Virus record (IMG/VR): IMGVR_UViG_3300036832_000786 | Location: 1-64,000 of that record | DNA: 64,000 bases | DNA from: a virus | Direction: 5' to 3' (one strand) | Shown: one piece after another, positions 18,392-37,262 of the stretch | Layout: each line of letters opens with the position of its first letter | How positions within the stretch are numbered: the first letter of the stretch is position 1 | Made by a program: the position numbers and the translations under genes | The notes under the pieces: model-generated | Databases searched by the model: none | Told to the model about the DNA's origin: nothing | What the model saw: the letters and a program-made list of their open reading frames with translations, nothing else

Positions 18392-18411
18392 CGTTGTGTC
18401 CTTCCTAGATA

Positions 18412-18707
18412 AGGTTCACTCCACCAGTTTGTGTCTATTCTGGAGTCAGGGTTCACTCCGTCACTTTGATTCTGTCAGTAGATAGGGTTCACTCTACTTC
18501 ATTGCGTCTGTCTATGGGATGGGTTCGCTCGCCCGTAATGTGTCTGTCGCCGGGGTGGCTCACTCCTCATGTTTGATTCTGTCCGCGTGCTCTGGTTCGT
18601 TCCTCCTGTTTGATTCCGTCTGGGTGGATGACTCGTTCCTGTCGTTTGTGTCTGTCGGAGCGGGTGACTCGTTCTAGCAGTATGTTTCCGGTTCCGCAGG
18701 TTGACTC
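18412..18707 (-). repeat. Two-part 36-bp repeat array R3 (8 units)
   Basis: Eight units read leftwards. On the plus strand the TGTGTCT/TGATTCT/TGTTTCC blocks start at 18430, 18467, 18503, 18539, 18574, 18611, 18647 and 18683, spacing 35-37. Each is paired with a TTCACTC or ACTCGTTC block. It fills the gap between the IS110-like gene and the methyltransferase; I see no gene in it. Confidence 0.9.
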
Positions 18708-18777: not shown

Positions 18778-19899
18778 TTATGCCGCTTTCTTGCGCGGGA
18801 TCGGGCACGGGATGTAGTGACCGTGCTCTAGTATCGCGATGGCGTAGGGTGCCGGTGCTTCCTTGCCCCAATGGCGGAAGTACCATTCTTCGTGAAGGTG
18901 ACTGAGGAAAATCTTCACCGTGTAGCGCCGGGCCATCGCGTCGACATGGGCCGGTGGCAGGATACCTTTGCTGTAGGCCGCATAGGCGTCGGTCTTCTTG
19001 TCGACAGTGTCCTTGCGCTTCGCCGCGACCTCACGGAACTCACCGCGCTCGTTGCGGTTGACTTCGCGCTCCTTGCGACGGCGGTACATCTGTCCGTAGA
19101 AGCACTCTTCGTCGTTACTGAACATCATAAACGAGTGACCGGCTTTCCAGCACAGGGTTTTGAAGCTGGCGTTCCACGGACGCTTCTCACCCTTTTTCCA
19201 CGGGCGGTTACCGGAGTAGGCACGGATGCTGCGATCGACACCGATGATCTGCGGGTTACTGGCGATGATCGCCGGGTGTGCCGCCTCCGAATCGACCACC
19301 ACCTGGAAAAACGCGTGGAAGTGACCATCGGGGTAGAGGTAGGTTGCCTCGTAAGGCGGCTCCAGTGTCAGGTGCGGGATGACACCTTCCGGGATCGGCT
19401 CGCGGTACGCCACCTTGTAGATCGCGCGCTTAAGCTCGGTGTCGGTTTCCGGCCCGGCGATCCCGGCGTAGCTGTATATGTGACCAACGGTCGGGCACCG
19501 CTCGATCTTTATGTGCGCGAGTAACCCGGCAGAGATCACCGGGCCGATGCCGTACACCTGTCGCATCCATTCACCCATCATGTGATTCTGGGTGTAGATG
19601 TCGAGTGCGGCCTTGATCTGACTCTCCAGGACCGCGTTCTGGGTCCGCAGCCAAGTGATAATTTCGTGCGGTTCACCGGACTTGGCGAGTGCCCGTTCCT
19701 GACCGGCGGCGCGTTTACGGTTTTCTTGCAATTGGTAGTAGGCGTCTACCAGGAACCGAGATTCGTTGTCACCGAGTGTCGCCGCCCCGCGTCGTAAGTC
19801 ACGGGTCAGGCGGTTTACGGGGTTCAATTCCAGGTCGGCGTCTTCGCGGGCGCAGCCCTTCGGCCACGGACACGCGTGCAGCGTGCTCGTATCACTCAT
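18778..19899 (-). CDS. IS110-like transposase C-terminal (HhH) domain protein
   Basis: 373 residues from the ATG preceded by AAAAGGAAAC (a GTG/ATG nine codons upstream is weaker). Residues 115-130 (VYGIGPVISAGLLAHI) are the helix-hairpin-helix of the Transposase_20 (IS116/IS110/IS902 C-terminal) domain; later FKTLCWKAGHSFMMF, YRRRKEREVN and AMARRYTVKIFLSHLHEEW match the rest of that domain. The N-terminal DEDD RuvC-like nuclease of IS110 is not visible, and no inverted repeats flank the gene. It may be a domesticated DNA-binding relative rather than an active transposase. Confidence 0.7.
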   Translation of the reverse strand: MSDTSTLHACPWPKGCAREDADLELNPVNRLTRDLRRGAATLGDNESRFLVDAYYQLQENRKRAAGQERALAKSGEPHEIITWLRTQNAVLESQIKAALDIYTQNHMMGEWMRQVYGIGPVISAGLLAHIKIERCPTVGHIYSYAGIAGPETDTELKRAIYKVAYREPIPEGVIPHLTLEPPYEATYLYPDGHFHAFFQVVVDSEAAHPAIIASNPQIIGVDRSIRAYSGNRPWKKGEKRPWNASFKTLCWKAGHSFMMFSNDEECFYGQMYRRRKEREVNRNERGEFREVAAKRKDTVDKKTDAYAAYSKGILPPAHVDAMARRYTVKIFLSHLHEEWYFRHWGKEAPAPYAIAILEHGHYIPCPIPRKKAA

Positions 19900-19946
19900 C
19901 GGGTATGTTTCCTTTTCTAGCCACAATGGCTCCTACCCTACTACCG

Positions 19947-20127: not shown

Positions 20128-20595
20128 CTACTGCGGCTGGATGATACCGTCGAGCATTGGCCCAACGGCATCGTCCATCCGTGTCATGGGTTCCAGAGCG
20201 ATCACCCGGTTGTTCATACCGGGTGACAGATCACGGACCATGTGTAGCAGGACCGCTTTGCTGGTGGTGGTGTCACTCCCGGAGATGTTGACGATCTCGA
20301 TACGATCGGGAGCCTCACTCGGTCGTGGACCGTCTGTACCGACCAGCCGTGTCACCGTCCACCCCTCGCTGACAAAGCAGAAGGCGCGGCACTTCATCTC
20401 GCGTGCCTTTTGCTTCACTGCCGCGAACGCCATCTGTTTTTGCAGATCGTTTTCCCACGGACAGCCGATGACGAGTGACGAACCGTCCGCACCGATCAGG
20501 TGGTAGGTCGGCATAAGAAACTTGTGCCGTTCCTCCAACAGTATCTTGCGGGCGAACTCCTCACCGAGTTGCAGAAGAGTGTCGAGTTCGGCCAT
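20128..20595 (-). CDS. Conserved phage protein of unknown role
   Basis: 155 residues, with GAGAGGTGA before the ATG. Helical N-terminus (TLLQLGEEFARKILLEERHK), a central beta region (TYHLIGADGSSLVIGCPWEN, AFCFVSEGWTV) and a C-terminal segment ending with MLDGIIQPQ. Reads as a compact soluble alpha/beta protein. Family not recognised. Confidence 0.65.
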   Translation of the reverse strand: MAELDTLLQLGEEFARKILLEERHKFLMPTYHLIGADGSSLVIGCPWENDLQKQMAFAAVKQKAREMKCRAFCFVSEGWTVTRLVGTDGPRPSEAPDRIEIVNISGSDTTTSKAVLLHMVRDLSPGMNNRVIALEPMTRMDDAVGPMLDGIIQPQ

Positions 20596-20598
20596 TGG

Positions 20599-20868
20599 TC
20601 ACCTCTCAGCCTGGGCGAGGATGCCCTGCGCGATTTGCTCCAGTTCCTCCATCACCACTTCGATCGCGGCGACACGGACGCGGTGTTGCTCGCGCGCCAC
20701 CGGCCCGGCGTCAGGACTGATGACGTAGTAGTCACGATCGTGTGGCGTGGCATCCGCCATCATGTTGAGCGCGCCACGCAGTGCCCCACGCGCCTGGGCG
20801 ATTTGCTTCAACAGTGCCGCTGCGCTGGTACCGTTGAGGTGCACGCGCGGGATCATTAGCTCAGTCAT
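20599..20868 (-). CDS. Small helical protein
   Basis: 89 residues, GGAGGG before the ATG. Mostly helical (AAALLKQIAQARGALRGAL, VRVAAIEVVMEELEQIAQG). It is co-transcribed with its neighbours at 3-10 bp spacing. Unknown function. Confidence 0.6.
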   Translation of the reverse strand: MTELMIPRVHLNGTSAAALLKQIAQARGALRGALNMMADATPHDRDYYVISPDAGPVAREQHRVRVAAIEVVMEELEQIAQGILAQAER

Positions 20869-20878
20869 GTTACCCTCC

Positions 20879-21145
20879 TCATTTTGCGAGTTTTACGACG
20901 ACGACAGCGATTGCTGCGGCGACCGCTGTTGTAAGTACTGTGTTGGTAGTCACCGCAATGATTAATTGCAGCCAGGGGAACCACCATCGTTCGCGGTCAA
21001 GCTTGCGTTCCTCAGTGTAAAATTTGAGCGCCTCGGCGCGCAACTTTGACTCTTCGGCGGCAAGTTTGTGAGACTCGGCCAACGCCTGATCGATACGAGC
21101 GACCTGTTCCCTGATGTAGAGTTCTTCGTGCGGATTATCCGCCAT
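20879..21145 (-). CDS. Coiled-coil protein with C-terminal membrane anchor
   Basis: 88 residues. Residues 10-50 form an acidic/basic coiled coil (REQVARIDQALAESHKLAAE, SKLRAEALKFYTEERKL). The last ~35 residues are one long hydrophobic segment (WFPWLQLIIAVTTNTVLTTA, VAAAIAVVVVKLAK). Tail-anchored topology. A GTGAC-CTAG-GTCAC box and GAGAGGAG site lie directly upstream. Confidence 0.65.
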   Translation of the reverse strand: MADNPHEELYIREQVARIDQALAESHKLAAEESKLRAEALKFYTEERKLDRERWWFPWLQLIIAVTTNTVLTTAVAAAIAVVVVKLAK

Positions 21146-21159
21146 GCGTTCTCCTCTCC

Positions 21160-21178
21160 GTGACCCCTAGTTGGTCAC
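21160..21178 (-). promoter_or_regulatory. Palindromic CTAG box 1
   Basis: GTGACC-CCTAGTTG-GTCAC, 14 nt before the start codon at 21145, between the preceding terminator and the Shine-Dalgarno. One of eight copies. Confidence 0.7.
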
Positions 21179-21180
21179 GC

Positions 21181-21213
21181 AAAAAGAAACCCCCGGCATC
21201 GCTGCCGGGGGTT
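21181..21213 (-). terminator. Rho-independent terminator
   Basis: Perfect 11-bp stem AACCCCCGGCA / TGCCGGGGGTT followed by a U-run on the minus strand; ends the 21235 gene. Confidence 0.85.
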
Positions 21214-21234
21214 ACCTCTACCACAGTCACGCAG

Positions 21235-21618
21235 TTACATCGAGTCGGCTTCCTGCGGGGCGTTTTCCAAAGCCTCAACATGTTCGAATTCCGGCGCGTC
21301 CGGTATTTCGGGAACCTCGACCTCGTCCAGTTCCAGCCCTTCCCATTCATCGATCCACGACTGGTACTGTTGACCGGCGTCACCCTCCTGCCACTTGTCG
21401 GAACGCTCGCCCTGGTAGTCAGTCATCTCGTTGACGATACCGTCACGCCATTCGATGACATTGGTAAGGGCACCGTTGTACTCACCAATGGCTTCGGCGA
21501 GTTCACCATGTGCCAGTTCAAACCTTTCCCAGGCTGCCTCGATCTCGATCTTCTTGTCAGCGAGCATGGCGATGTGGGCGCTAAGCTCGTTCTGTTGTGT
21601 CTTGTTTAACCGCTTCAT
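21235..21618 (-). CDS. Acidic helical protein
   Basis: 127 residues from the ATG with GGAAGGAG before it. N-terminal two thirds are helical (NELSAHIAMLADKKIEIEAAW, GELAEAIGEYNGALTNVIEW); the tail is strongly acidic (EGLELDEVEVPEIPDAPEFE). It might be a DNA mimic or an inhibitor, but only its charge suggests this. It stands alone between a box and a terminator. Confidence 0.6.
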   Translation of the reverse strand: MKRLNKTQQNELSAHIAMLADKKIEIEAAWERFELAHGELAEAIGEYNGALTNVIEWRDGIVNEMTDYQGERSDKWQEGDAGQQYQSWIDEWEGLELDEVEVPEIPDAPEFEHVEALENAPQEADSM

Positions 21619-21632
21619 CGTTACTCCTTCCA

Positions 21633-21648
21633 GTGACCCTAGTGTCAC
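21633..21648 (-). promoter_or_regulatory. Palindromic CTAG box 2
   Basis: GTGAC-CCTAGT-GTCAC, 14 nt upstream of the start at 21618 and four bases from the terminator stem. Confidence 0.7.
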
Positions 21649-21652
21649 ACAC

Positions 21653-21688
21653 AAAGTAACCCGGTCACCGAAGTGACCGGGTTACTTT
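21653..21688 (-). terminator. Long perfect terminator hairpin
   Basis: 16-bp perfect stem AAAGTAACCCGGTCAC / GTGACCGGGTTACTTT with a CGAA loop. The stem end repeats the GTGAC half-site of the adjacent box. Confidence 0.8.
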
Positions 21689-21942
21689 TAGCATACCGGG
21701 GGTAGCGGCGCTAGGGCGTTTTGTTCCCAGCGCACGATGTTACGGAACTTCGTCGTGACCATGATCGCGGTAGTACCGTCACGCGGTAATTTGCGTTCGC
21801 AGAGCCTTCCGTGCGCGAAGTAGCGGACAAAAACATGCGGCCGATCGGTCCACGCCTTGTGGATGCGATATTCACCGTCGTGCCAGTTGATGATGCCGTC
21901 ATCGCGCCACCCTTCATTGATCATTCTCTGGTGTTGGTTCAC
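21688..21942 (-). CDS. Small basic protein
   Basis: 84 residues if the GTG at 21942 is used (GAGGAGG just before it); the ATG at 21924 (INEGWRDDGI) is the alternative. Tryptophan-rich N-terminus (EGWRDDGIINWHDGEYRIHK) and a basic middle. It overlaps the end of the upstream gene, so translation is coupled. Unknown function. Confidence 0.55.
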   Translation of the reverse strand: MNQHQRMINEGWRDDGIINWHDGEYRIHKAWTDRPHVFVRYFAHGRLCERKLPRDGTTAIMVTTKFRNIVRWEQNALAPLPPVC

Positions 21943-22120
21943 TGCCTCCTCCTCGCTTGATCACCTCGGTGGTGATGTCGAATTTCGACAGCCGTACCCG
22001 TTTCATGTCGGGGTAAACGGTCCACGCCAGATTTAGGTACACCATCGCCTCCTCCCGGCTGTTGAACGTGCGTTCCGCAGCCGGGATGTTTTTGTCGGTC
22101 AGTCGCCATTTAGTGATCAT
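21914..22120 (-). CDS. Small protein of unknown role
   Basis: 68 residues from ATG at 22118-22120, behind GGGAGGAGG. Sequence (WRLTDKNIPAAERTFNSREE, MVYLNLAWTVYPDMKRVRL, FDITTEVIKRGGG) reads as a small alpha/beta protein. It overlaps both neighbours by 11-29 bases, typical of this compressed operon. Confidence 0.6.
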   Translation of the reverse strand: MITKWRLTDKNIPAAERTFNSREEAMVYLNLAWTVYPDMKRVRLSKFDITTEVIKRGGGSEPTPENDQ

Positions 22121-22298
22121 GCCTCCTCCCAATGAATCGAGCGGTACCGACCCGGTTACCGTTGATGTCAAAGATCGGCCACGGTGGCGGTTCGTGCTCG
22201 ATTTGATCGGCCAGTTTGCGCAGCAAGCTCGCAACCTCGGCTTCCGGTATCGGCTCAAAGGCCGAGTTGTCACAGTCGATTTCAAGCGTGAATTTCAT
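22110..22298 (-). CDS. Small conserved phage protein
   Basis: 62 residues from the ATG behind GGAGGACGACG. The pattern KFTLEIDCDNSAFEPIPEAE, VASLLRKLADQIE, IFDINGNRVGTARF is common in alphaproteobacterial phages and prophages: one strand, one helix and a DINGNRVG hairpin. No function is known for it. Confidence 0.7.
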   Translation of the reverse strand: MKFTLEIDCDNSAFEPIPEAEVASLLRKLADQIEHEPPPWPIFDINGNRVGTARFIGRRHDH

Positions 22299-22308
22299 CG
22301 TCGTCCTC

Positions 22309-22386
22309 CTAGTGGAACATACCATTGAACAGGTACAAGGCGATGGCCAAAGGTATCGCCATGAATATAAGGTTCGTCGCGGTCAT
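22309..22386 (-). CDS. 25-residue membrane peptide
   Basis: A tiny frame with GAGAGG before its ATG. Nearly the whole product (NLIFMAIPLAIALYLFNGMF) is one hydrophobic helix. It directly follows a terminator and precedes the 22298 gene by 10 bases. It may be a real single-pass peptide or a leader; conservation would decide. Confidence 0.45.
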   Translation of the reverse strand: MTATNLIFMAIPLAIALYLFNGMFH

Positions 22387-22420
22387 TTTGTCCTCTCGGT
22401 ATCCAGCGGATTGCTGACAC

Positions 22421-22455
22421 CAAAAGGAAACCCCGCCAGTTGCCCGGCGGGGTTT
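22421..22455 (-). terminator. Rho-independent terminator
   Basis: Stem AAACCCCGCC / GGCGGGGTTT with a U-run on the minus strand, after the 22461 gene. Confidence 0.8.
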
Positions 22456-22460
22456 GAGTG

Positions 22461-22865
22461 TTAGCGCCATTCCCGATGAACGCTTTCCTCTTCGCATACC
22501 CATTTATTGTGCGGGATCGCGGGTTCGGCGTGACAGTGATTTTCGACCCAGATTCCGGCTGAACTGTTACCGTCACCTCCCATGTGTCGATAGTCGCCGA
22601 TGATCAAATCCATCGCCGCGTCGTAACGCTCTTCCGGTACCTTACAGGTGTGGATAACATCGTCGGTTTGCTGCGGTTTGTGGTTCCAGAAGTGGATACA
22701 TTCCCATTCTTTGTAGACAAGTCCCTGGTAGAGTTCTACCGGTGCCTTCTGGCCGGGCGCGTCCAATGCGCACAACTGTCCGGGATTAGCTACGCTGCAC
22801 ATTACAGCATGGGCGGGGGACAGCGTCATCAGGGTGAGCGCGATCCCGGTAATGAGTGACTTCAT
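22461..22865 (-). CDS. Secreted Cys-containing protein
   Basis: 134 residues. The N-terminus KSLITGIALTLMTLSPAHA is a classical signal peptide with an AHA cleavage site. The mature part has six cysteines, an FWNHKP phrase (FWNH also occurs at 23726), and no membrane helix, so it should be periplasmic with disulfides. Likely a moron or superinfection-related envelope protein (inference). Confidence 0.65.
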   Translation of the reverse strand: MKSLITGIALTLMTLSPAHAVMCSVANPGQLCALDAPGQKAPVELYQGLVYKEWECIHFWNHKPQQTDDVIHTCKVPEERYDAAMDLIIGDYRHMGGDGNSSAGIWVENHCHAEPAIPHNKWVCEEESVHREWR

Positions 22866-22879
22866 CGTTGCTCCTTTCA

Positions 22880-22895
22880 GTGACCCTAGCGTCAC
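22880..22895 (-). promoter_or_regulatory. Palindromic CTAG box 3
   Basis: GTGAC-CCTAGC-GTCAC, 14 nt before the start codon at 22865, directly after a terminator. Confidence 0.7.
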
Positions 22896-22900
22896 ACCAA

Positions 22901-22933
22901 AAGGAAACCCCCGGCGTCACTGCCGGGGGTTTT
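22901..22933 (-). terminator. Rho-independent terminator
   Basis: Stem AAACCCCCGGC / GCCGGGGGTTT, U-run on the minus strand; ends the 22948 gene. Confidence 0.8.
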
Positions 22934-22947
22934 GGGTAGTGGGTTTG

Positions 22948-23199
22948 TTACACCTCCTTCTGAAGCTTAAACAGCCGCGCGGCATCCTGTGGCCGCAGCC
23001 CGACACAGTGGTCGAGCGGGATGTCATTACGGTGGATTGTGTGATCCTCGTAAATGGTGACACCCTCCATGACCCGTCCTTTGGGGGTCACCCGGTTTAT
23101 CTGGCACGGCAGATCGAACCGCTCGTTCGATCGGCGTACCCGAAGGTTGGGTGACTCACTGGCAGCGGCAATCAGCCGCTTCACTGTCCATACTTTCAT
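22948..23199 (-). CDS. Small basic protein
   Basis: 83 residues, coupled to the upstream gene by an ATGA overlap. Sequence (VKRLIAAASESPNLRVRR, RVMEGVTIYEDHTIHRND, GLRPQDAARLFKLQKEV) is alpha/beta and basic. Family not recognised. Confidence 0.6.
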   Translation of the reverse strand: MKVWTVKRLIAAASESPNLRVRRSNERFDLPCQINRVTPKGRVMEGVTIYEDHTIHRNDIPLDHCVGLRPQDAARLFKLQKEV

Positions 23200-23438
23200 G
23201 ACCGTACTCTTTCCAGTTTCTCGGTTTTCAGGTTGAGCTTGGCGGGTCTGGTTCTGAACTCACCCACCTGTACATACACCGGGTACAACCGGTTACCGTG
23301 GTCATCGACTTCGTAGAACCACTGGATGATGTCATCCACAAGGTTCCCCCATTCCGCCCAGACGTGGACCCAAGGTTCACCTTCGGGTTTGTAAGTGAGC
23401 CGACAATACTGTTGTCCGTTTTCCAGATACCGTTTCAC
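23196..23438 (-). CDS. Small aromatic protein, GTG start
   Basis: 80 residues from a GTG with GGAAGGAGG at good spacing. Tryptophan/tyrosine-rich (YCRLTYKPEGEPWVHVWAEW, IIQWFYEVDDHG). A CTAG box lies 14 nt upstream. Unknown function. Confidence 0.6.
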   Translation of the reverse strand: MKRYLENGQQYCRLTYKPEGEPWVHVWAEWGNLVDDIIQWFYEVDDHGNRLYPVYVQVGEFRTRPAKLNLKTEKLERVRS

Positions 23439-23452
23439 GGTACCTCCTTCCT

Positions 23453-23470
23453 GTGACGCTAGCTCGTCAC
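23453..23470 (-). promoter_or_regulatory. Palindromic CTAG box 4
   Basis: GTGACGCTAGCTCGTCAC, an 18-bp near-perfect palindrome, 14 nt upstream of the GTG start at 23438. Confidence 0.7.
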
Positions 23471-23471
23471 A

Positions 23472-23514
23472 CACTAACACAAAACCCGGCGAGCCGAAGC
23501 CCGCCGGGTTAGTG
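23472..23514 (-). terminator. Terminator hairpin
   Basis: Stem AACCCGGCG / CGCCGGGTT, extended by CACTAA / TTAGTG. It follows the stop of the 23515 gene immediately. Confidence 0.75.
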
Positions 23515-23724
23515 CTACTTGAACATGTGTAAAGCGGCCAGGACACTGATCGCGACGCCGATGACACTCGCCATACCGAAGACCACGACGATGATGCCGG
23601 TGAACATGGTCATGAGTGACGGTTTACTGTCGATCTTGGCTTCGAGGCGAATGATGTCGATGTGTAACTCAGTACGCATCGACATCAGATCGTTGTGTAG
23701 TGTGTCTAGTGTTACCTCGGCCAT
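23515..23724 (-). CDS. Small tail-anchored membrane protein
   Basis: 69 residues from the ATG just after the upstream stop (TGACATG). A short helix (LMSMRTELHIDIIRLEAKID) precedes a long C-terminal hydrophobic segment (MFTGIIVVVFGMASVIGVAI). Topology resembles phage membrane-stress or superinfection proteins; function unknown. Confidence 0.6.
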   Translation of the reverse strand: MAEVTLDTLHNDLMSMRTELHIDIIRLEAKIDSKPSLMTMFTGIIVVVFGMASVIGVAISVLAALHMFK

Positions 23725-23725
23725 G

Positions 23726-24202
23726 TCACTCCTCCATCTTCCGCTGACACTCTGGTCCGATGCCAATTTCGACACTCGACGGGACCGTTAAAGTTCTGCC
23801 ACACCGGCCACATTTTCCAGCATGACGGACCACCATATCGGTCGGGAGGTGACCGCGCTCGACATGGTTCCAGAAGTAGACAAAGCCTTTGACGCAGGGT
23901 GCATCGGCCTTGAACTTCGCCTTGGCGGTCTGCCGGAACAGGCAGCCGTTTAGCCGGGTTTCGATCAGCCCGATGTAGTTGTAGTCACTGTCGTTGTCGG
24001 GACCGCTCAGGACACCGACAAACCAGCGGTTTGCCGGTTCACCGTTGTCGTCCTTGGCGCGTGCCACTTTGTAGGTGAAGTGTTTCCCGGTGCGGCGCGA
24101 CTCGAGAGTGATCGTCGCGTTACCGGCAGTGGTGTACGAGGCAGCGTCAGCGGCATCGGTGAAACCGTTGACGTTGACCAAGCCGTTGTCATCGTGTGTC
24201 AT
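23726..24202 (-). CDS. DUF6011-type zinc-ribbon protein
   Basis: 158 residues. The C-terminus CGRCGRTLTVPSSVEIGIG then PEC is the four-cysteine motif of DUF6011, found in many phage accessory proteins. The N-terminal half is beta-rich (ATITLESRRTGKHFTYKVAR, NRWFVGVLSGPDNDSDYNY). The domain probably binds zinc and nucleic acid or protein; no activity is established. Confidence 0.75.
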   Translation of the reverse strand: MTHDDNGLVNVNGFTDAADAASYTTAGNATITLESRRTGKHFTYKVARAKDDNGEPANRWFVGVLSGPDNDSDYNYIGLIETRLNGCLFRQTAKAKFKADAPCVKGFVYFWNHVERGHLPTDMVVRHAGKCGRCGRTLTVPSSVEIGIGPECQRKMEE

Positions 24203-24236
24203 CGTTAAGGTTCCTTCCTAGAATAAGGATCACACA

Positions 24237-24271
24237 TAAAGAAAACCCCCGGCTCTTGCAAGCCGGGGGTT
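24237..24271 (-). terminator. Rho-independent terminator
   Basis: Perfect stem AACCCCCGGCT / AGCCGGGGGTT with U-run on the minus strand, after the 24276 gene. Confidence 0.85.
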
Positions 24272-24275
24272 CCTT

Positions 24276-24491
24276 TTAAGCCTTCAGGATGACAAAATCC
24301 TCCAGGCGGTTGTAGCGGATGCGGACATGCTGGCCGGTCCAGTCACCTTTGCTGGTGTACTTGCCGTCCCAGCGGTTACCGATGTCGGCGATGAGGAAGT
24401 CCTTATTGGCGTTCCAGTCCTTTTTGACCGCTTCCTCGTCTTTGTAGTCACGCCCGTAGGCGGGAACCAAGTTCACGGCGTATGTGGGCAT
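24276..24491 (-). CDS. Small conserved phage protein
   Basis: 71 residues (YAVNLVPAYGRDYKDEEAVK, WNANKDFLIADIGNRWDGKY, VRIRYNRLEDFVIL). Beta-strand alternation suggests a small barrel. GGAGGTAAC before the ATG. It resembles small proteins common in proteobacterial phages; no function known. Confidence 0.65.
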   Translation of the reverse strand: MPTYAVNLVPAYGRDYKDEEAVKKDWNANKDFLIADIGNRWDGKYTSKGDWTGQHVRIRYNRLEDFVILKA

Positions 24492-24500
24492 TGTTACCTC

Positions 24501-24779
24501 CTACTCGTTGATGATGGTGAGCTTCAGATCAAGGTGAGCCTTGGACTGTGACTCGAAGCGCATCAGCTTCCAGTCGCGTTGTCCCTGCACCACCTGGACA
24601 ACCTCGAACACCACCTCGCCGTGGGTCTTCTCGTTGCGGATAGTGACCAACGTGTTGAAGGTGTGACCGTGACGTTGCCACAGGTTACTGAAGTACCCGA
24701 CAAACGTCTTAGTCTTGGCATCGTAGGTGAACAGGGTGGCCGGGATCACCTCGTTGTGAAGTGCTTTTCTACCGGACAT
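24501..24779 (-). CDS. Small beta-rich protein
   Basis: 92 residues (LFTYDAKTKTFVGYFSNLWQ, LVTIRNEKTHGEVVFEVVQV). TAGGAGGTACAC precedes the ATG, the same context as the next gene upstream. Soluble, unknown function. Confidence 0.6.
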   Translation of the reverse strand: MSGRKALHNEVIPATLFTYDAKTKTFVGYFSNLWQRHGHTFNTLVTIRNEKTHGEVVFEVVQVVQGQRDWKLMRFESQSKAHLDLKLTIINE

Positions 24780-24788
24780 GTGTACCTC

Positions 24789-24971
24789 CTAAAGTTTCAT
24801 CATCAGCCGCTGCGCAGCAAACAGTGCCTGTTGCGCCTCGATCAGCTTGGTGACAATCTCGTCCGGCAGTTCGAGCGGCTGCATCGATGCCTTGGCGCGG
24901 ACGATCAACTTGCTGATCGTTTCGCCAGCATCGAACATCGTGCCGTAGGCAGCTTTTTGTAACTCGTTCAT
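24789..24971 (-). CDS. Small helical protein
   Basis: 60 residues, helical (AAYGTMFDAGETISKLIVRA, VTKLIEAQQALFAAQRLMMK). CTAGGAGGTACAC precedes the ATG. First gene of a three-gene unit ending at 24276. Unknown function. Confidence 0.6.
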   Translation of the reverse strand: MNELQKAAYGTMFDAGETISKLIVRAKASMQPLELPDEIVTKLIEAQQALFAAQRLMMKL

Positions 24972-24995
24972 GTGTACCTCCTAGCAGGTTACACA

Positions 24996-25028
24996 TAAAG
25001 AAACCCCGCCGGTCACCCGGCGGGGGTT
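24996..25028 (-). terminator. Rho-independent terminator
   Basis: Stem AACCCCGCCGG / CCGGCGGGGGTT (one bulge) with U-run on the minus strand; follows the 25034 gene. Confidence 0.75.
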
Positions 25029-25033
25029 GGTGT

Positions 25034-25429
25034 CTAATCATTGAAGTCCCACGGGAGCGCGCTCCACGCTTCCGAGTGCTGAACCACGCCGCCGAGTTTC
25101 TTGGCCCACTGTTCGGTCAGAGCTTCGCTGATCGCGTCCAGTTCCTGGTACAGCGGCTTATCGGGTACGTTGCCCTCGCTGCACTGGTAGATCAGGCACT
25201 CCAGCGCCTTGAACTGCGCGAGCGTGGTGTCGTCCTGGTGCTCGCGGTGCTTGTAGGTGAACCGCTTCGGCTTGTCACCGTAGCGTTGCCGTAACGCTTC
25301 CATGTTGAGCCGGTATAGCCGGGCACCAAACTTGTCGGCGTTGTCACCTTCGATCGCTTGGTTGCGGAAGGCAAACACTAGACTGACGACACGATCGATC
25401 GTCCCGTCGCTGACTAAAAATGCTGACAT
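25034..25429 (-). CDS. Helical phage protein of unknown role
   Basis: 131 residues. Helical throughout (DRVVSLVFAFRNQAIEGDN, LYRLNMEALRQRYGDKPK, LAQFKALECLIYQCSEG, ISEALTEQWAKKLGG). No known motif. Monocistronic between a CTAG box and a terminator. Confidence 0.6.
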   Translation of the reverse strand: MSAFLVSDGTIDRVVSLVFAFRNQAIEGDNADKFGARLYRLNMEALRQRYGDKPKRFTYKHREHQDDTTLAQFKALECLIYQCSEGNVPDKPLYQELDAISEALTEQWAKKLGGVVQHSEAWSALPWDFND

Positions 25430-25443
25430 CGTTACCTCCGTTA

Positions 25444-25461
25444 GTGACGCTAGATCGTCAC
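25444..25461 (-). promoter_or_regulatory. Palindromic CTAG box 5
   Basis: GTGACGCTAGATCGTCAC, 14 nt upstream of the start at 25429. Confidence 0.7.
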
Positions 25462-25465
25462 ATGT

Positions 25466-25499
25466 AAAGAAACCCCCACCGGTCACCCGGTGGGGGTCA
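25466..25499 (-). terminator. Rho-independent terminator
   Basis: Stem ACCCCCACCGG / CCGGTGGGGGT with U-run on the minus strand. Confidence 0.8.
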
Positions 25500-25502
25500 G
25501 TG

Positions 25503-25841
25503 TTACCGAAGCTTGGCTACCAGTTCCTCGCCCAACTCGGCGGTGACATCATCCTCGCCACCGTTGATGCAGCGGGTGATGTAGTGCCAGACGTGCGGGT
25601 CGGTGATTTCCAACTCGGTGTCTTTGGCATCCATCTTACCGGTGCGCCGGACAATGAGGCTCGCGGTCGGCTTCTTTTGCCGCTCTCCGGTCGCAAAGTC
25701 GCGGCCCGCGACCAGCGGATGACGCGACCACCCGAAGCCGTTGTGCTTGTCCGGTTCCCAGTCCGGCGGGAACATCTCACCCACGTTCAACAGGTGTATC
25801 TCGTAGGTCAGGTCAGGTGTCTTGATTGTCAGTACCTTCAT
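25503..25841 (-). CDS. Small phage protein of unknown role
   Basis: 112 residues from the ATG with GGAG seven bases upstream. N-terminal beta strands (KVLTIKTPDLTYEIHLLNVG), then FGWSRHPLVAGRDFATGERQ and a C-terminal HYITRCINGGEDDVTAELG helix. Soluble; family not recognised. Confidence 0.6.
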   Translation of the reverse strand: MKVLTIKTPDLTYEIHLLNVGEMFPPDWEPDKHNGFGWSRHPLVAGRDFATGERQKKPTASLIVRRTGKMDAKDTELEITDPHVWHYITRCINGGEDDVTAELGEELVAKLR

Positions 25842-26036
25842 CGTGATTCTCCATCGGGTCATCGTGTTTCTGTCTGGCAGCGTCGAGTGGACTCGGCTTC
25901 TTGAGGGAGCGGAACGGCGTCACTGTTGCCGGTGAACCGGCGGCGAGTGTTAGTCGCCTTATTGAGGTAGCAGGTTCGACGTTTCGTTGCTGTCACTTAA
26001 AGCAAAACCCCCGGTCATGAATGACCGGGGGAAGTG
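25842..26036 (-). other. Non-coding gap with one degenerate repeat unit and a terminator
   Basis: Contains a single TGTTTCTGTCT block near 25866 that resembles block 1 of the two-part repeat, and the terminator at 26003. I see no gene or clear promoter. Confidence 0.4.
26003..26031 (-). terminator. Rho-independent terminator
   Basis: Stem CCCCCGGTCAT / ATGACCGGGGG with an A-run (U-run in leftward RNA), just after the 26037 gene. Confidence 0.8.
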
Positions 26037-26267
26037 TTACCAGCCGAAACCGTTCGCCTTACCGACATCCTCCACCCACGCCTTGATGATGGTGGCGTTC
26101 TGAGCGATGTTGCGGAGCGTCAGTTCCAGGTTATGCGGCGATAGGCTGTTGATCGCATTCAGGTCTTGCAGCGAGACAACCTCGCTGGCGATCTTGAGCG
26201 CAGCTCGCAGCGCGGATGCCGTGCTCTTCAAGTCTTGCGGCTTCGGGTTTGGACTCAACTTCGGCAT
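26037..26267 (-). CDS. Small helical protein
   Basis: 76 residues; its AAGGAG site lies in the end of the upstream gene. Helical (STASALRAALKIASEVVSLQ, HNLELTLRNIAQNATIIKAW). Unknown function. Confidence 0.6.
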   Translation of the reverse strand: MPKLSPNPKPQDLKSTASALRAALKIASEVVSLQDLNAINSLSPHNLELTLRNIAQNATIIKAWVEDVGKANGFGW

Positions 26268-26272
26268 AGTGA

Positions 26273-26611
26273 CTACTCCTTTTTCTGGTCAGGGGTCTTG
26301 CGGGCGGCGACCCGCACGCTGGCCTTGCGCACCGATTCCTTGGAGTGCTCGGCGACCCAGTCGTCACCCATCTCGGTTTTGATGAGATCGGCATCGAGTG
26401 ATGTTACCGCGCACTCCGCGACGATCGTCGCGGTGTACAGGTGACCGTCGATGTACTTCCGGTTCCCGGCCCTCGCCAGCAACTCGGCGACCGCTGCCTT
26501 CTTCTGTTTCTCGAAGTCGGCGACAACAGCGGCGAGTGAGCCGATCTTGTCAACCAGAGCGGCGGTGTCGATGCTGCCGATGTTGGCAGGTTTCTTCGTC
26601 TTGGCTTTCAT
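26273..26611 (-). CDS. Lys/Ala-rich protein of unknown role
   Basis: 112 residues with a basic start (KAKTKKPANIGS), helical middle (LVDKIGSLAAVVADFEKQKK) and a C-terminal VAEHSKESVRKASVRVAARK. The style resembles small host-nuclease-inhibitor (Gam-like) proteins, but length and motifs are too weak to call that. AAGGAG-TAACG precedes the ATG. Confidence 0.55.
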   Translation of the reverse strand: MKAKTKKPANIGSIDTAALVDKIGSLAAVVADFEKQKKAAVAELLARAGNRKYIDGHLYTATIVAECAVTSLDADLIKTEMGDDWVAEHSKESVRKASVRVAARKTPDQKKE

Positions 26612-26623
26612 CGTTACTCCTTC

Positions 26624-26642
26624 GTGGTCCCTAGTGACCCAC
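26624..26642 (-). promoter_or_regulatory. Palindromic CTAG box 6 (diverged)
   Basis: GTGGTCCCTAGTGACCCAC: arms GTGGTC / GACCCAC around CTAG, 12 nt upstream of the start at 26611. Confidence 0.55.
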
Positions 26643-26678
26643 TAAAAGAAAACCCCCGACACCGAAGTGCCGGGGGTT
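26643..26678 (-). terminator. Rho-independent terminator
   Basis: Stem AACCCCCG-ACA / TGC-CGGGGGTT (one mismatch) with A-run on the plus strand. Confidence 0.75.
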
Positions 26679-26682
26679 GTGG

Positions 26683-26883
26683 CTAGATCGCCTCAAGGTG
26701 ACCATCGACCCAACGGTAGTTCGGCGGGTCGTCACTCTCGACAACGCGCTTGTCGCGCACCGCGAACCAGCGCAGCATCAGAGCGCAGACATTGGCCTCG
26801 GCTTCCTCGCGGGTGGCGAAGCGGAGTTGGTTGCCAACCCATTTACCGGAACTGTCGGCGATCACTTCGGGTTTAAAGCTCAT
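26683..26883 (-). CDS. Small conserved phage protein
   Basis: 66 residues: FKPEVIADSSGKWVGNQLRF, ATREEAEANVCALMLRWFAV, RDKRVVESDDPPNYRW. This strand-helix-strand pattern recurs in small proteins of many alphaproteobacterial phages. No function is known. Coupled to the upstream gene. Confidence 0.7.
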   Translation of the reverse strand: MSFKPEVIADSSGKWVGNQLRFATREEAEANVCALMLRWFAVRDKRVVESDDPPNYRWVDGHLEAI

Positions 26884-26885
26884 TG

Positions 26886-27122
26886 TCAGCCCTCCTTGAT
26901 AAGGCCCAGCTTGCGCGCGGCCCGCTCGATGATGTCAGCGGACAGCGTGATCCGGTGTTCGACATAGGCACCGTGGGTGCCGCTGTAGCGGTGACCCGTA
27001 ACGCGAACCCGCGCCCCCGGCTCACCGACATCGAGTGCCTCGATGTTAGTGATGTTGGCGTTGTTTAGGATGTCTTTCCAGGCACCCGTTTTCGGGTCGT
27101 GGCGTGAAACTTTCCAATGCAT
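26886..27122 (-). CDS. Small protein of unknown role
   Basis: 78 residues (WKVSRHDPKTGAWKDILNNA, VRVTGHRYSGTHGAYVEH, IIERAARKLGLIKEG). GGGGAGAGTAACG precedes the ATG. First gene of a pair ending at a terminator. Confidence 0.6.
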   Translation of the reverse strand: MHWKVSRHDPKTGAWKDILNNANITNIEALDVGEPGARVRVTGHRYSGTHGAYVEHRITLSADIIERAARKLGLIKEG

Positions 27123-27193
27123 CGTTACTCTCCCCTAGATGAGAGGTTCTTGGGAACCCGGTGACCAACCACTGGCCAGCGACTTCACACACA

Positions 27194-27230
27194 GAGAAAA
27201 CCCCGGCACCTTTCGATGCCGGGGTTTCTC
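27194..27230 (-). terminator. Rho-independent terminator
   Basis: Stem AAACCCCGGCA / TGCCGGGGTTT with flanking GAGA / TCTC pairs. Confidence 0.8.
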
Positions 27231-27368
27231 TCGCCGCGAAGGAGGAGATTGTACCTCCGCGAGATGTCGGTGTTGTTCCCTCAACGCCGAAAAAGGCCGA
27301 CACTTGCCGACTTGTCGGACGCGATTGCCGGGAGTGATGCACAGCTTGGACCGGCTGCCTCGCGCGGG
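27231..27368. other. Non-coding spacer with hairpin
   Basis: 138 bases between the terminator and the 27369 gene. A hairpin CGCG..GGAGG / CCTCCGCG lies near 27236-27266. No frame here looks like a gene. Confidence 0.4.
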
Positions 27369-27566
27369 CTAGTTGTACTCCAGCCCGGCATCGATCATAC
27401 CAGACACCAGCCCCTCGGCATAGCGGTGCTCGACAAACAGGCTGCCGCCCATCCACTGCCAGCCTTCGGACACGACGTTTTCATCGATCCATTCGCGGGC
27501 GGTGTCGGTCAGCGGCGTGATCGCGACCAGCGTGCCGTGATCAGTGACAGAGAAATCGTACAACAT
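27369..27566 (-). CDS. Small conserved phage protein
   Basis: 65 residues from the ATG behind AAAGGAGGTG. The pattern DFSVTDHGTLVAITPLTDTA, REWIDENVVSEGWQWMGGSL, FVEHRYAEGLVSGMIDAGLE belongs to a small family widespread in rhizobial and related phages. Function unknown. Confidence 0.75.
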   Translation of the reverse strand: MLYDFSVTDHGTLVAITPLTDTAREWIDENVVSEGWQWMGGSLFVEHRYAEGLVSGMIDAGLEYN

Positions 27567-27567
27567 G

Positions 27568-27798
27568 CTACACCTCCTTTCGGTTAGCGTGGTTTTGGGC
27601 GCAATGCTTGCACTCAGACTGAGTGTCAATCATCGCGCCGATCTTGACCCGGCTGCGGGCGTGGCCCGGCTCCGGGTAGTGGTACAGCGTGTACCACTGC
27701 GGTGTTTCGGAGTGGTTGTACGCAGGCTCAATGCTGTAGTGACCGCAGTGAGTCTCCGTGGAACCCTCTTCCGACCGCTTCCATTTCAGTTCGTTCAT
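27568..27798 (-). CDS. Small Cys/His protein
   Basis: 76 residues. WKRSEEGSTETHCGHYSIEP then a C-terminal ECKHCAQNHANRKEV give possible metal ligands (CKHC). GGAGGTAACG before the ATG, with a CTAG box 10 nt upstream. Unknown function. Confidence 0.6.
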   Translation of the reverse strand: MNELKWKRSEEGSTETHCGHYSIEPAYNHSETPQWYTLYHYPEPGHARSRVKIGAMIDTQSECKHCAQNHANRKEV

Positions 27799-27808
27799 CG
27801 TTACCTCC

Positions 27809-27826
27809 GTGACGCTAGATCGTCAC
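27809..27826 (-). promoter_or_regulatory. Palindromic CTAG box 7
   Basis: GTGACGCTAGATCGTCAC, identical to box 5, 10 nt upstream of the start at 27798. Confidence 0.7.
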
Positions 27827-27831
27827 TATAA

Positions 27832-27859
27832 GAAAAACCCGGTCACTTGCGTGACCGGG
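27832..27859 (-). terminator. Rho-independent terminator
   Basis: Stem CCCGGTCAC / GTGACCGGG with an AAAAA run (U-run leftward). Confidence 0.75.
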
Positions 27860-28037
27860 CTGGTATGAGGTGGACACCCTTCGCGGCGTACCGCTCGATT
27901 AGCCGAAGGAATGCCTCGGCTGAACGCTCGGTGTCGGAACTCCACCGGGCGTGGGTGATGATCCGGTCGTAGGCTTCGCGCACCGCGCGGTCCACGATGT
28001 AACCGGATTCATCGGTGATTTTGATAGGGTCAGACAT
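27843..28037 (-). CDS. Small helical protein
   Basis: 64 residues (DPIKITDESGYIVDRAVREA, RSAEAFLRLIERYAAKG). CGGAGGTAACG before the ATG. Its stop overlaps the terminator stem. Unknown function. Confidence 0.55.
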   Translation of the reverse strand: MSDPIKITDESGYIVDRAVREAYDRIITHARWSSDTERSAEAFLRLIERYAAKGVHLIPARSRK

Positions 28038-28039
28038 CG

Positions 28040-28273
28040 TTACCTCCGTACAAAGGCGACACCGTTGTGCGCCAGGGTGATTGCCGTCTGTACCTGCGCC
28101 TCGCTCGGCACCACGACCGGGTAGAACCGCCCGGCAGGCGTGCTGGCGATCAGGTACCAGAGGTGCTCGTCAGTGCCGCCCAGGTTTTCCACCGTCTTGT
28201 GGAGCGCCTTTTCGGCGTTCGCGTAGGTGGCGTAGGTGCGCGACAGGTCGTCACCGAAAACTTTGTGTAACAT
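28040..28273 (-). CDS. Small conserved phage protein
   Basis: 77 residues: TYATYANAEKALHKTVENLG, LWYLIASTPAGRFYPVVVPS, ITLAHNGVAFVRR. A helix-strand-strand-helix pattern with a terminal (G)VAFV-type motif common in phage small proteins. First gene of the leftward small-gene cluster. Confidence 0.65.
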   Translation of the reverse strand: MLHKVFGDDLSRTYATYANAEKALHKTVENLGGTDEHLWYLIASTPAGRFYPVVVPSEAQVQTAITLAHNGVAFVRR

Positions 28274-28286
28274 CGTTTGTCTCCTT

Positions 28287-28304
28287 GTGACGCTAGCTCG
28301 TCAC
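28287..28304 (-). promoter_or_regulatory. Palindromic CTAG box 8
   Basis: GTGACGCTAGCTCGTCAC, identical to box 4, 13 nt upstream of the start at 28273. Confidence 0.7.
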
Positions 28305-28312
28305 ACCTTTAG

Positions 28313-28353
28313 AAACGACAAACGCCCCGCAACCGGTGAAGGTCGGGGGGCGC
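28313..28353 (-). terminator. Weak terminator-like hairpin
   Basis: CGCCCC / GGGGCG stem with an AAACGACAAA run on the left. It sits at the head of the cluster, with no gene directly upstream, so it may be an attenuator. Confidence 0.45.
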
Positions 28354-28866
28354 TTGGGTATTCTCTAGGTTCTATTTTTCCGCTGACTGCATCCGTGCCC
28401 CGTCGCCGCGCGCGAGTGGACTGCGCGTGGTCTATCATCTGTGTCACCGGTACTGGGGGCCGCACGCCGGGTTCCTTTTTGGGGTCCAGCGCACCCTTAC
28501 GACAGGTGCGGACATGGTGCAAGCGCGGCGTTGGCCGGGTGGCGCGCGGGAACCTTTCGGAACCGGGCCGGTGGCCTAGCCGCTTGCGGAGCCGTCGCAC
28601 TGTGCGGCGGGGGATTTGCGAACCGAAGGCTTTTTTCGGGAGGTTGTCTTCCGAACCCTGACGGGGGCCTTTCTCGGTACCCTCCCCGGAGGCTCCCTCC
28701 CTGATCCTCCGGGAGGGACCACCCTCTGGGGTCCACCATATAGATGGGCATCCAGAGTCACTTTTTCAAGGGGGGAGTGACTTTTATGTTTCGTGACTTT
28801 TCAAGTGGTTAGGGGGGTTTGAGCGTTTTTTCTCCGTTGGGTTCCCGGATACAGTTACTTCAGTGT
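28354..28866. other. GC-rich non-coding region with hairpins and direct repeats
   Basis: No frame in these ~510 bases looks like a protein. It holds a strong hairpin (CCCTCCCCGGAGG / CCTCCGGGAGGG near 28680-28715), a second (GGACC / GGTCC near 28716-28733), an inverted repeat AGTCACT / AGTGACT at 28756-28782, and three GTSACTTTT copies at 28757, 28777 and 28793. It lies upstream of the leftward small-gene cluster and could hold its promoters, a structured RNA or an origin; I cannot choose. Confidence 0.45.
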
Positions 28867-29607
28867 TCAAAGTACAGAGTCACTTTCTTTTAAAGTAACA
28901 TTTTCTATGCATACCGTTTTGACCGGTACTCTAATAACCCCCAGTTTTCTGCCAATGATCTGGGTTTCTATATTGGTTTCGGCGGTGAATTCGGCAAAGG
29001 CTTGTAGTGCTCCGTCCCATTCCTCGACCCGCCAACAATCATCGACCACTAGGGTACCGCCGGGGGCCATTGCCCGGTAAATCTTTGGCAAGGCGTTTTT
29101 GACCGGTAGATACAAGTCGACATCCAGCAGGCAAAAGGCGATCGGGGCGAGTGCGGTAAAATCAAACACGTTGGCATCGCCTTGGATCGACCGTACCCGG
29201 TGGATATTGTTGTGGATCATGGTTTTGTCGAACCATGTTTGCCGGTTGTCATCAAAGGAGGAGAACAACTTGCGCACCACCTTTGGTGACTTTTGACGTT
29301 GTTCCTTTTCGTAGTCAATATCGTTTGCGGTAAAGCCTGAAAAGGTGTCAATCGCATAATAGTTACGATTGATCCCCAGGTCATCCATGTACTTGTTGAG
29401 AAAGACGGTGGTTGATCCGTAGGCACAACCAACTTCGACAATCGAGCCGGGGGTTCTTCGGACCTTTGCGACGCACTCGGCGAGGAACATAAGTTCTATG
29501 GGAGAGAACATGTAACTGTAGACGTTACAGAAGGAGTGGTAGAGCGGGGTGTTAAAGGCGATTTGCTTGAGGAGGGTACGAATGGTGGATTTTACGGCTG
29601 GGTACAT
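28867..29607 (-). CDS. TylF/MycF-like SAM methyltransferase
   Basis: 246 residues. GSIVEVGCAYGSTTVFLNKY is SAM-binding motif I, YYAIDTFSGFTANDIDYE the TylF-type acidic motif, and FCLLDVDLYLPVKNALPKIY plus GGTLVVDDCW carry the metal-binding aspartates. TylF/MycF enzymes O-methylate sugars in antibiotics and surface polysaccharides. Here it might modify a sugar on the phage or host envelope, a possible partner of the GT2 enzyme. It is more AT-rich than its neighbours, suggesting recent acquisition. Confidence 0.8.
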   Translation of the reverse strand: MYPAVKSTIRTLLKQIAFNTPLYHSFCNVYSYMFSPIELMFLAECVAKVRRTPGSIVEVGCAYGSTTVFLNKYMDDLGINRNYYAIDTFSGFTANDIDYEKEQRQKSPKVVRKLFSSFDDNRQTWFDKTMIHNNIHRVRSIQGDANVFDFTALAPIAFCLLDVDLYLPVKNALPKIYRAMAPGGTLVVDDCWRVEEWDGALQAFAEFTAETNIETQIIGRKLGVIRVPVKTVCIENVTLKESDSVL

Positions 29608-34477: not shown

Positions 34478-35584
34478 ATGATGACTGATACCGCTTCCGA
34501 AAATGTGTACCCCCTAGACTTCCGTCAGAAACGACGGCGTAAGGGTACTACCTTAACCGAAGACTCGATCACCGGTTCCAAGCGATGGCTGCGTGTGGTG
34601 TACTGGAAACACACGATAAGCGCGCTGCGTGTCAGGTTCCCAAAGACGACATTGCAGGTTTTAATCCTTGCAGGACCGTTACCGCAGGAAGAGATCGGTT
34701 TGCTTCGGTCACTCGATGACAATTTGTACATCGTTGTAGTGGACCGGGACAAGGAACTGGTCACGCGGGCAAAGGAAGCTGGGGCTGATGAGGCGATTTG
34801 GTGTCATGTCGGCGGTATGGTCGGACGGCGGTTCAGACTGTCCCCCCAACTTATGGGCCGAAAGTTCCACGCAATCTGGCTTGACACCAGTACACTGGCT
34901 ACACTCCAGCTTAGAAAAATGGTGCATGTGTGTTATGATAATGGTCTGCGGCTTCGCGGTATGTTGTTAGTCACCTTCCAGGTATCAAAGGACTTCGATT
35001 ACAAGGACAAGGCAACCGGTGAGTGGCACACCCAGAAAAGACTCCGTAACTCCGCCGTGCATTACGTCAACCGCTGGCTTGTTTCTACCGGATATATCGA
35101 TGAGGGCATGGCTGCGCGTATCTGGTACGTGTTCACCGCACTGAGCCGTATCCTAACTTGTTGTGTCCAATACAACGGCGGTGAGGGCGAGAAAGTACCG
35201 ATGATGGCGTGCTTGCTGACAAAGCCTCCTACTATGCCAAAGCGTGTTGTAACACCGATAAAGTTTTTTAGGTTGGAGAAGGATGATTACATGCGGGCTG
35301 CGGTGACTGGGAATCTGGTCGGTCCTGTGGAACAGCTTGAACAAGTCCGTCACAGATACGACCAGCTTATCAAGGAGGATATCGTGAAGGGGATCAATCG
35401 TAGCGCCGGGGCTTTTAAGGCTAATATCACTCGGCGTAATAAACGGATCGAGGAACTCGAAGCGGAGCTTTTAGCGGAAACCGGAGCGCGGATCGGTGAC
35501 CTCGATGCAATTGAGTTCCTTCAGCTATGCGTCAAGGAACTCAACCGACAGCTTGCGGATACAAAGGAGTTGATCAATGAGTGA
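34478..35584 (+). CDS. Rossmann-like protein paired with DUF5131 gene
   Basis: 368 residues. TTLQVLILAGPLPQEEIGLL and LYIVVVDRDKELVTRAKEAG look like the first two strands of a Rossmann or methyltransferase-like fold, but the glycine-rich SAM loop is degenerate. A middle WLDTSTLATLQLRKMVHVC follows; the C-terminal ~100 residues are a charged coiled coil (RRNKRIEELEAELLAETG). It overlaps the Gp37/Gp68 gene by eight bases, implying a shared function. Not a recognised family. Confidence 0.6.
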   Translation: MMTDTASENVYPLDFRQKRRRKGTTLTEDSITGSKRWLRVVYWKHTISALRVRFPKTTLQVLILAGPLPQEEIGLLRSLDDNLYIVVVDRDKELVTRAKEAGADEAIWCHVGGMVGRRFRLSPQLMGRKFHAIWLDTSTLATLQLRKMVHVCYDNGLRLRGMLLVTFQVSKDFDYKDKATGEWHTQKRLRNSAVHYVNRWLVSTGYIDEGMAARIWYVFTALSRILTCCVQYNGGEGEKVPMMACLLTKPPTMPKRVVTPIKFFRLEKDDYMRAAVTGNLVGPVEQLEQVRHRYDQLIKEDIVKGINRSAGAFKANITRRNKRIEELEAELLAETGARIGDLDAIEFLQLCVKELNRQLADTKELINE

Positions 35585-37222: not shown

Positions 37223-37262
37223 CTTTTCCCCTAGGATTCCGGGTTCTAGGAAAGGAATTCGT

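Follow-up and report, generated by a model that had tools for sequence, protein, structure and literature searches.

In one part of the genome of a phage represented solely by environmental DNA sequence, a short palindromic box, GTGAC..CTAG..GTCAC, recurs just ahead of one small leftward gene after another, and the question that this locus raises is whether the box works as DNA or as RNA. The original prediction, from which this analysis started, had left three readings side by side: a start-associated operator, an RNA-processing site or a translational operator. The stretch analysed (the window) comprises 64,000 nucleotides, positions 1–64,000 of the 112,650-base virus record IMGVR_UViG_3300036832_000786 (A), and was compared with two related contigs, IMGVR_UViG_3300036846_000590 (B) and IMGVR_UViG_3300021168_000025 (C). 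An element acting at the RNA level is favoured, because the stems co-vary, because the loop holds its length although the half-site spacing varies, and because the box always lies on the sense strand before the Shine–Dalgarno sequence (SD). The DNA operator is weakened by the same evidence and keeps some probability.

The box and its place in the cassettes

Boxes were found at all eight predicted positions (21160, 21633, 22880, 23453, 25444, 26624, 27809 and 28287), and the observation itself is sound. Read leftward along the minus strand, box hairpins occupy 28287–28304 (box 1, GTGACG-AGCTAG-CGTCAC, before the start at 28273), 27809–27826 (box 2, GTGACG-ATCTAG-CGTCAC, start at 27798), 25444–25461 (GTGACG-ATCTAG-CGTCAC, start at 25429), 23453–23470 (GTGACG-AGCTAG-CGTCAC, GTG start at 23438), 22880–22895 (GTGAC-GCTAGG-GTCAC, start at 22865), 21633–21648 (GTGAC-ACTAGG-GTCAC, start at 21618) and 21160–21178 (GTGACC-AACTAGG-GGTCAC, start at 21145). 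These seven match the consensus exactly, with a spacer of 6, 8 or 9, whereas the eighth, at 26624–26642 before the start at 26611, is off consensus; it reads GTGGGTCACTAGGGACCAC, a variant box (GTGGGTC-ACTAGG-GACCAC) with one G bulged. The 3′ end of the box lies 10–14 nt from the leftward start codon, as predicted, and (A)AGGAG/GGAGG is found between the two. The TAACG-ATG that often follows does occur at these starts, but it is not part of the box, because starts that lack a box also have it (e.g. at 28.04 kb). A rigid search pattern, GTGACNNCTAGNNGTCAC, gave zero matches, a failure explained by the variable spacing.

The frequency of the box is far above chance. GTGAC..CTAG..GTCAC occurs seven times in the window and was absent from 60 dinucleotide shuffles, and GTGAC-N5-10-GTCAC occurs eight times against a shuffled mean of 0.9. 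CTAG is itself uncommon in A (1.08/kb versus 3.76 expected from base composition, and slightly below the Markov expectation, 122 against 143), and its presence before so many starts therefore stands out. Within 21–28.3 kb, 11 of the 13 starts directly after an intrinsic terminator have CTAG, the set being enlarged by three degenerate CTAG hairpins at 24.98, 24.22 and 27.14 kb. The first (24972–24994, GTGTAACCT-GCTAGG-AGGTACAC) holds the SD in a stem that extends to the start codon at 24971; the second (24212–24229, TCCTT-ATTCTAGG-AAGGA) precedes the start at 24202; and the third (27127–27147, ACCTCTC-ATCTAG-GGGAGAGT) carries the SD within its 3′ arm, before the start at 27122. The long leader of this last gene also contains a second, larger hairpin at 27148–27195 (minus strand), present in A, B and C (GTGACCAGTGGTTGGTCAC in B and C). 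One of the two starts without CTAG, at 22.42 kb, still has a post-terminator hairpin (22398–22421, GGTGTCAGCAATCCGCTGGATACC, start at 22386). At the other, at 25.98 kb, no hairpin is evident, and B has a box before the equivalent gene. All array boxes lie on the minus strand, as the sense strand, preceding the SD and the start of a small gene.

The surrounding layout is common to A, B and C. The leftward strand carries about 13 intrinsic terminators between 21.1 and 28.3 kb, and a small gene starts after each of them, as a rule no more than a few dozen bases on; C has about 20 terminators in the same arrangement. The terminator directly before box 2 (27836–27861) is representative of those preceding each box; others lie at 26651–26678, 25004–25025, 24242–24273, 23483–23510, 22905–22932, 22428–22455 and 21188–21213, all on the minus strand. 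After the terminator stem come a T-rich stretch, GTG, a hairpin or CTAG, the SD and the start codon, with the GTG at 9–11 nt past the stem in 28 of the 35 cassettes measured. The form common in A and B is a 5–6 bp stem, GTGAC(G)/(C)GTCAC, with the SD unpaired downstream, and that common in C is GTGTAAC, a short spacer and CTAGGAGGA, with CTAG touching the SD. The simplest summary is that two features frequently occur together: a hairpin beginning right after the terminator, and CUAG either in its loop or against the SD.

CTAG also adjoins the SD at a few starts elsewhere: at 22312, 18408 and 16613 on the minus strand, and at 37246 and 56255 on the plus strand. The 18408 site belongs to an outlying CUAG hairpin at 18396–18419 (minus strand, GTGAACCTTATCTAGGAAGGACAC, start at 18391). 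At 37246 and 56255, CTAGGAAAGG and CTAGGAGG stand immediately before rightward gene starts, inside predicted hairpins.

Pairing and spacing of the box arms

The predicted palindrome would fold as an RNA hairpin with CUAG in a loop of 5–7 nt, usually 6, but it does not consist of two half-sites at a fixed spacing. The distance from GTGAC to GTCAC is 5, 6, 7, 8, 9 or 13, and loop length stays within its range because the additional nucleotides go into the stem. A dimeric DNA-binding protein is not expected to tolerate half-site spacings of 5 to 13. The spacing, together with arms that differ between sites, thus fits an RNA hairpin and argues against conserved half-sites of a dimeric repressor operator.

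Pairing was assessed on unselected sites. When the flanks of the CTAG sites in A and B were reassorted, the cognate flanks folded to a mean of −7.7 kcal/mol compared with −4.4 for reassorted ones (z −5.4, 0/300 as low), and for all 33 CTAG sites of A, B and C the result was similar (z −5.2). The hairpins around array CTAGs are also more stable than those around the remaining 111 CTAGs of A (mean −9.3 versus −3.3, p 2e-6). We rely on these two comparisons. A set of 18 hand-picked hairpins formed 68 of the 72 inner pairs (mean after reassortment, 25), but these hairpins had been selected because they pair and serve only as an illustration; their pairs were counted by script, MAFFT having aligned the 18-mers on CTAG and not on the loop.

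Between orthologous genes of A and C the stems differ greatly in sequence, yet the hairpin is kept, and usually CTAG too. The start at 26611 has GTGGGTCACTAGGGACCAC where its C counterpart at 48181 has GTGTAACCTCTAGGAGGATCAC, and the start at 24202 has GTGACGAGCTAGCGTCAC where C has GTGACGGTATCTGTTACCGTCAC at 45491. In the leader before 27122 the CUAG stem is kept in A, B and C with different base pairs, and the C ortholog of the 23438 gene keeps a 9-bp stem with the loop TCTGT in place of the CTAG loop. Pairing is thus retained through changes on both sides of the stem, a pattern that is weaker in C alone. Comparison of the three genomes shows that layout, repetition, loop length and CUAG are conserved, and that what is conserved in the predicted stems is pairing rather than sequence.

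Candidate roles for the box

We favour, at roughly even confidence, a start-associated RNA element that acts on translation initiation or on the mRNA 5′ end. The boxes would act in cis, as hairpins within the 5′ untranslated regions of small phage cassettes. The leader of each cassette mRNA would begin at the GTG 9–11 nt past the terminator stem and form a short stem-loop whose loop, about six bases long, contains CUAG; this hairpin would end just before the SD or overlap it. Such a hairpin could act on translation initiation and/or protect or define the mRNA 5′ end, and CUAG may be read by a trans-acting factor of the phage or its host; a shared factor would join the cassettes into one post-transcriptional regulon. 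Transcription would come from upstream, since no promoter is visible between cassettes. The fullest form of this idea, in which at least a dozen unrelated small genes share the CUAG hairpin and one trans-acting factor, with transcription through all terminators under control of a structured leader, seems doubtful to us. If it were true, terminators and hairpins would separate transcription from translation of each cassette.

Several observations weigh against an RNA element of this kind. Only three related genomes are known, two of them nearly identical in the array, and in C alone the reassortment result is weak (z −1.5, 22/300). Many C stems are weak, and the hairpins of C array CTAGs do not stand out clearly from those of other CTAGs (p 0.07). 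In C the CTAG frequently does no more than run into the SD (CTAGGAGG), which means that the structure is not universal, while several hairpins lack CTAG (44.71, 40.04 and 44.15 kb in C; 22.42 kb in A). With hairpins lacking CTAG and CTAGs having weak stems, loop and stem are separable and may be separate features. Hairpins of the GTGAC class leave the SD free and others bury it, and no single effect on translation therefore follows. No RNA-binding regulator was identified. Without local promoters, moreover, read-through of about 12 terminators must be assumed.

The prediction that terminator and start leave no room for a normal promoter was supported both by a promoter scan and by alignment of the cassettes. 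Matches to the sigma-70 consensus in the array region showed no excess over the shuffled expectation and numbered zero at minus-strand cassette starts. Cassettes aligned on the GTG had no conserved letters at −35 distance beyond the terminator stem, and the terminator loop varies. In A neither a sigma factor region 2 profile nor a T7-type RNA polymerase was found, the latter in a search that was also silent in every control genome. Either the promoters are of an unfamiliar type, or the cassettes would be transcribed from upstream through the terminators.

These results bear directly on the DNA operator, in which each cassette would have a promoter overlapping the terminator T-tract and a phage repressor would bind the palindrome where transcription begins. 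Cluster A mycobacteriophages, with their stoperators, and cluster K, with its ESAS promoters (described below), might offer parallels. Palindromes adjoining terminators would suit short independent units; the phage is probably temperate, since it encodes a tyrosine integrase; GTGT(G/A)AC at 9–11 nt from the stem is conserved even if unpaired; some T-tracts read TATAGT or TATGGT; and in Adephagia the ESAS include putative SigA promoters with an inverted repeat (PMC11373665). Set against this are the variable half-site spacing, the stems that differ between sites yet remain paired, the lack of −35 conservation and the sigma-70 counts at chance level. We regard an operator or operator-promoter as rather unlikely, though still to be reckoned with.

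It is also conceivable, though unlikely in our estimate, that the box is part of an RNA-processing or stabilising junction. A long read-through transcript would be cut, in RNase E-like fashion, in the U-rich gap between the terminator and box hairpins, and each small mRNA would keep protecting stem-loops at its 3′ and 5′ ends. The near-constant length of this gap in most cassettes (9–11 nt), the hairpins present in some leaders even without CUAG and the lack of visible local promoters agree with such a junction. So does a conserved structured leader ahead of the array, which could support antitermination. This leader (28313–28737, minus strand) lies upstream of the first cassette and ends in the first terminator; its 425 nt are non-coding, with a predicted fold of −178 kcal/mol (−257 for the C counterpart). 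A single position differs between A and B, the 5′ part is well conserved in C, and the leaders of A and C each contain two CTAGs. A role for it in antitermination is a guess. A search of 20500–29500 against Rfam gave nothing at gathering score, only three weak sub-threshold matches, and no match to the leader. A processing junction leaves the retention of CUAG in the loop or beside the SD unexplained, sits poorly with the weak C hairpins and would need the intrinsic terminators to be overcome.

That terminator and box are mere recombination linkers, homology blocks for the gain, loss and shuffling of cassettes with no role in expression, is very improbable: B does have an extra cassette between two identical copies of a terminator that is present once at that place in the window, and a B cassette is missing from the window at 25.98 kb, but homology blocks would preserve sequence and not pairing, box sequences differ between the A and C orthologues compared, and the position at the SD would go unexplained. 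The single terminator copy in the window is that at 23483–23510, and its two copies in B are at 22258 and 22667; such a duplication is what homologous exchange at terminators would produce. B also has an additional gene with its terminator and box at the place of 25841–26008 (minus strand), which in the window is a spacer without a box, so that a cassette was either lost or gained there.

Four other candidates were discarded. Minimal start–stop open reading frames (GTG-TRA) at the box lacked a preceding SD and were inconsistent. The motif did not fit integron attC sites by eye, and the integrase is of the arm-binding phage type. CUAG as an extension of SD pairing has no known partner in the 3′ end of 16S rRNA. 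For a CsrA/RsmA regulon, the loops AGCTAG and ATCTAG lack GGA and no CsrA was found in A; a host CsrA is conceivable.

Known start-associated elements

The original prediction likened the box to the start-associated sequences (SAS) of mycobacteriophages, and the comparison is apt as an analogy, although sequence and relation to the SD differ. These repeats were described in 2011 (PMC3203893), and their role was still called unknown in a 2024 paper. The SAS of cluster K have a 13-bp consensus, GGGATAGGAGCCC, with up to two deviations; they are described as non-palindromic, contain the SD and typically lie 3–7 bp before the start (PMC3203893). Extended SAS (ESAS) comprise 17-bp inverted repeats with a variable spacer, and the departures in their left and right halves give no support for pairing as RNA (PMC3203893). 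Like SAS, the array boxes are short repeats just upstream of many non-structural starts, essentially in one orientation and before unrelated genes. Unlike SAS, they read GTGAC..CTAG..GTCAC or CTAGGAGG, end 10–14 nt before the start and do not have the SAS sequence. They differ from both SAS and ESAS in keeping pairing while sequence varies, in showing a CUAG loop and in each following a terminator, and from ESAS also in having arms of 5–9 bp and no sigma-70 hexamers. On these sequence comparisons, the element is an analogue of SAS/ESAS and not a member.

Phage translational operators, such as the coat protein hairpins of MS2 and PP7 and the T4 gp43 and RegA sites, are bound by known proteins, and most of them control a single gene or a few. 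The boxes resemble them as small hairpins or sites at or beside the SD with conserved letters, but serve at least a dozen genes and have no known protein. In 5′ stabilising stem-loops of the ompA type the loop sequence is generally not what matters; the boxes likewise lie in the 5′ part of the mRNA upstream of the SD, but keep CUAG in the loop. Cluster A stoperators are asymmetric 13-bp repressor sites of fixed sequence and are not hairpins, and the boxes resemble them in being short sites repeated many times close to gene boundaries. The array provides an independent case of start-associated repeats in an unrelated phage group, one in which comparison favours RNA structure over a DNA site. 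It would bear on the expression of small-gene arrays rich in terminators in phages, and because a terminator bounds each cassette, one small gene is enough to test what a single hairpin does.

A and B are nearly identical in the array, and the helicases of A and C are 79% identical. A search of viral contigs by box patterns, an array protein and the leader motif returned only B and C as further relatives; two isolated pattern matches in other contigs (L005 and L007) were taken as chance. No relatives were found in bacterial genomes by a DNA polymerase profile and the leader motif, nor any DNA-level similarity in the phage collection, and more distant relatives (about 35% in DNA polymerase) had no terminator array in the stretches examined. 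Such relatives as the DNA polymerase and helicase of A have among named phages are all distant, at about 30% identity. Phages of Caulobacter, Brevundimonas and Rhizobium encode proteins similar to one of the cassette proteins, a hint of an alphaproteobacterial host. A encodes portal, major head protein, tail sheath and terminase, along with DNA polymerase, helicases, SbcCD-like genes and a RusA-like resolvase, and with its integrase is probably a temperate myovirus. Upstream of the array, 28867–29607 (minus strand) encodes a TylF-like O-methyltransferase; downstream, the protein of 18778–19926 (minus strand) matches a PHROG family annotated as transposase; and 35577–36914 (plus strand) encodes a DUF5131 protein.

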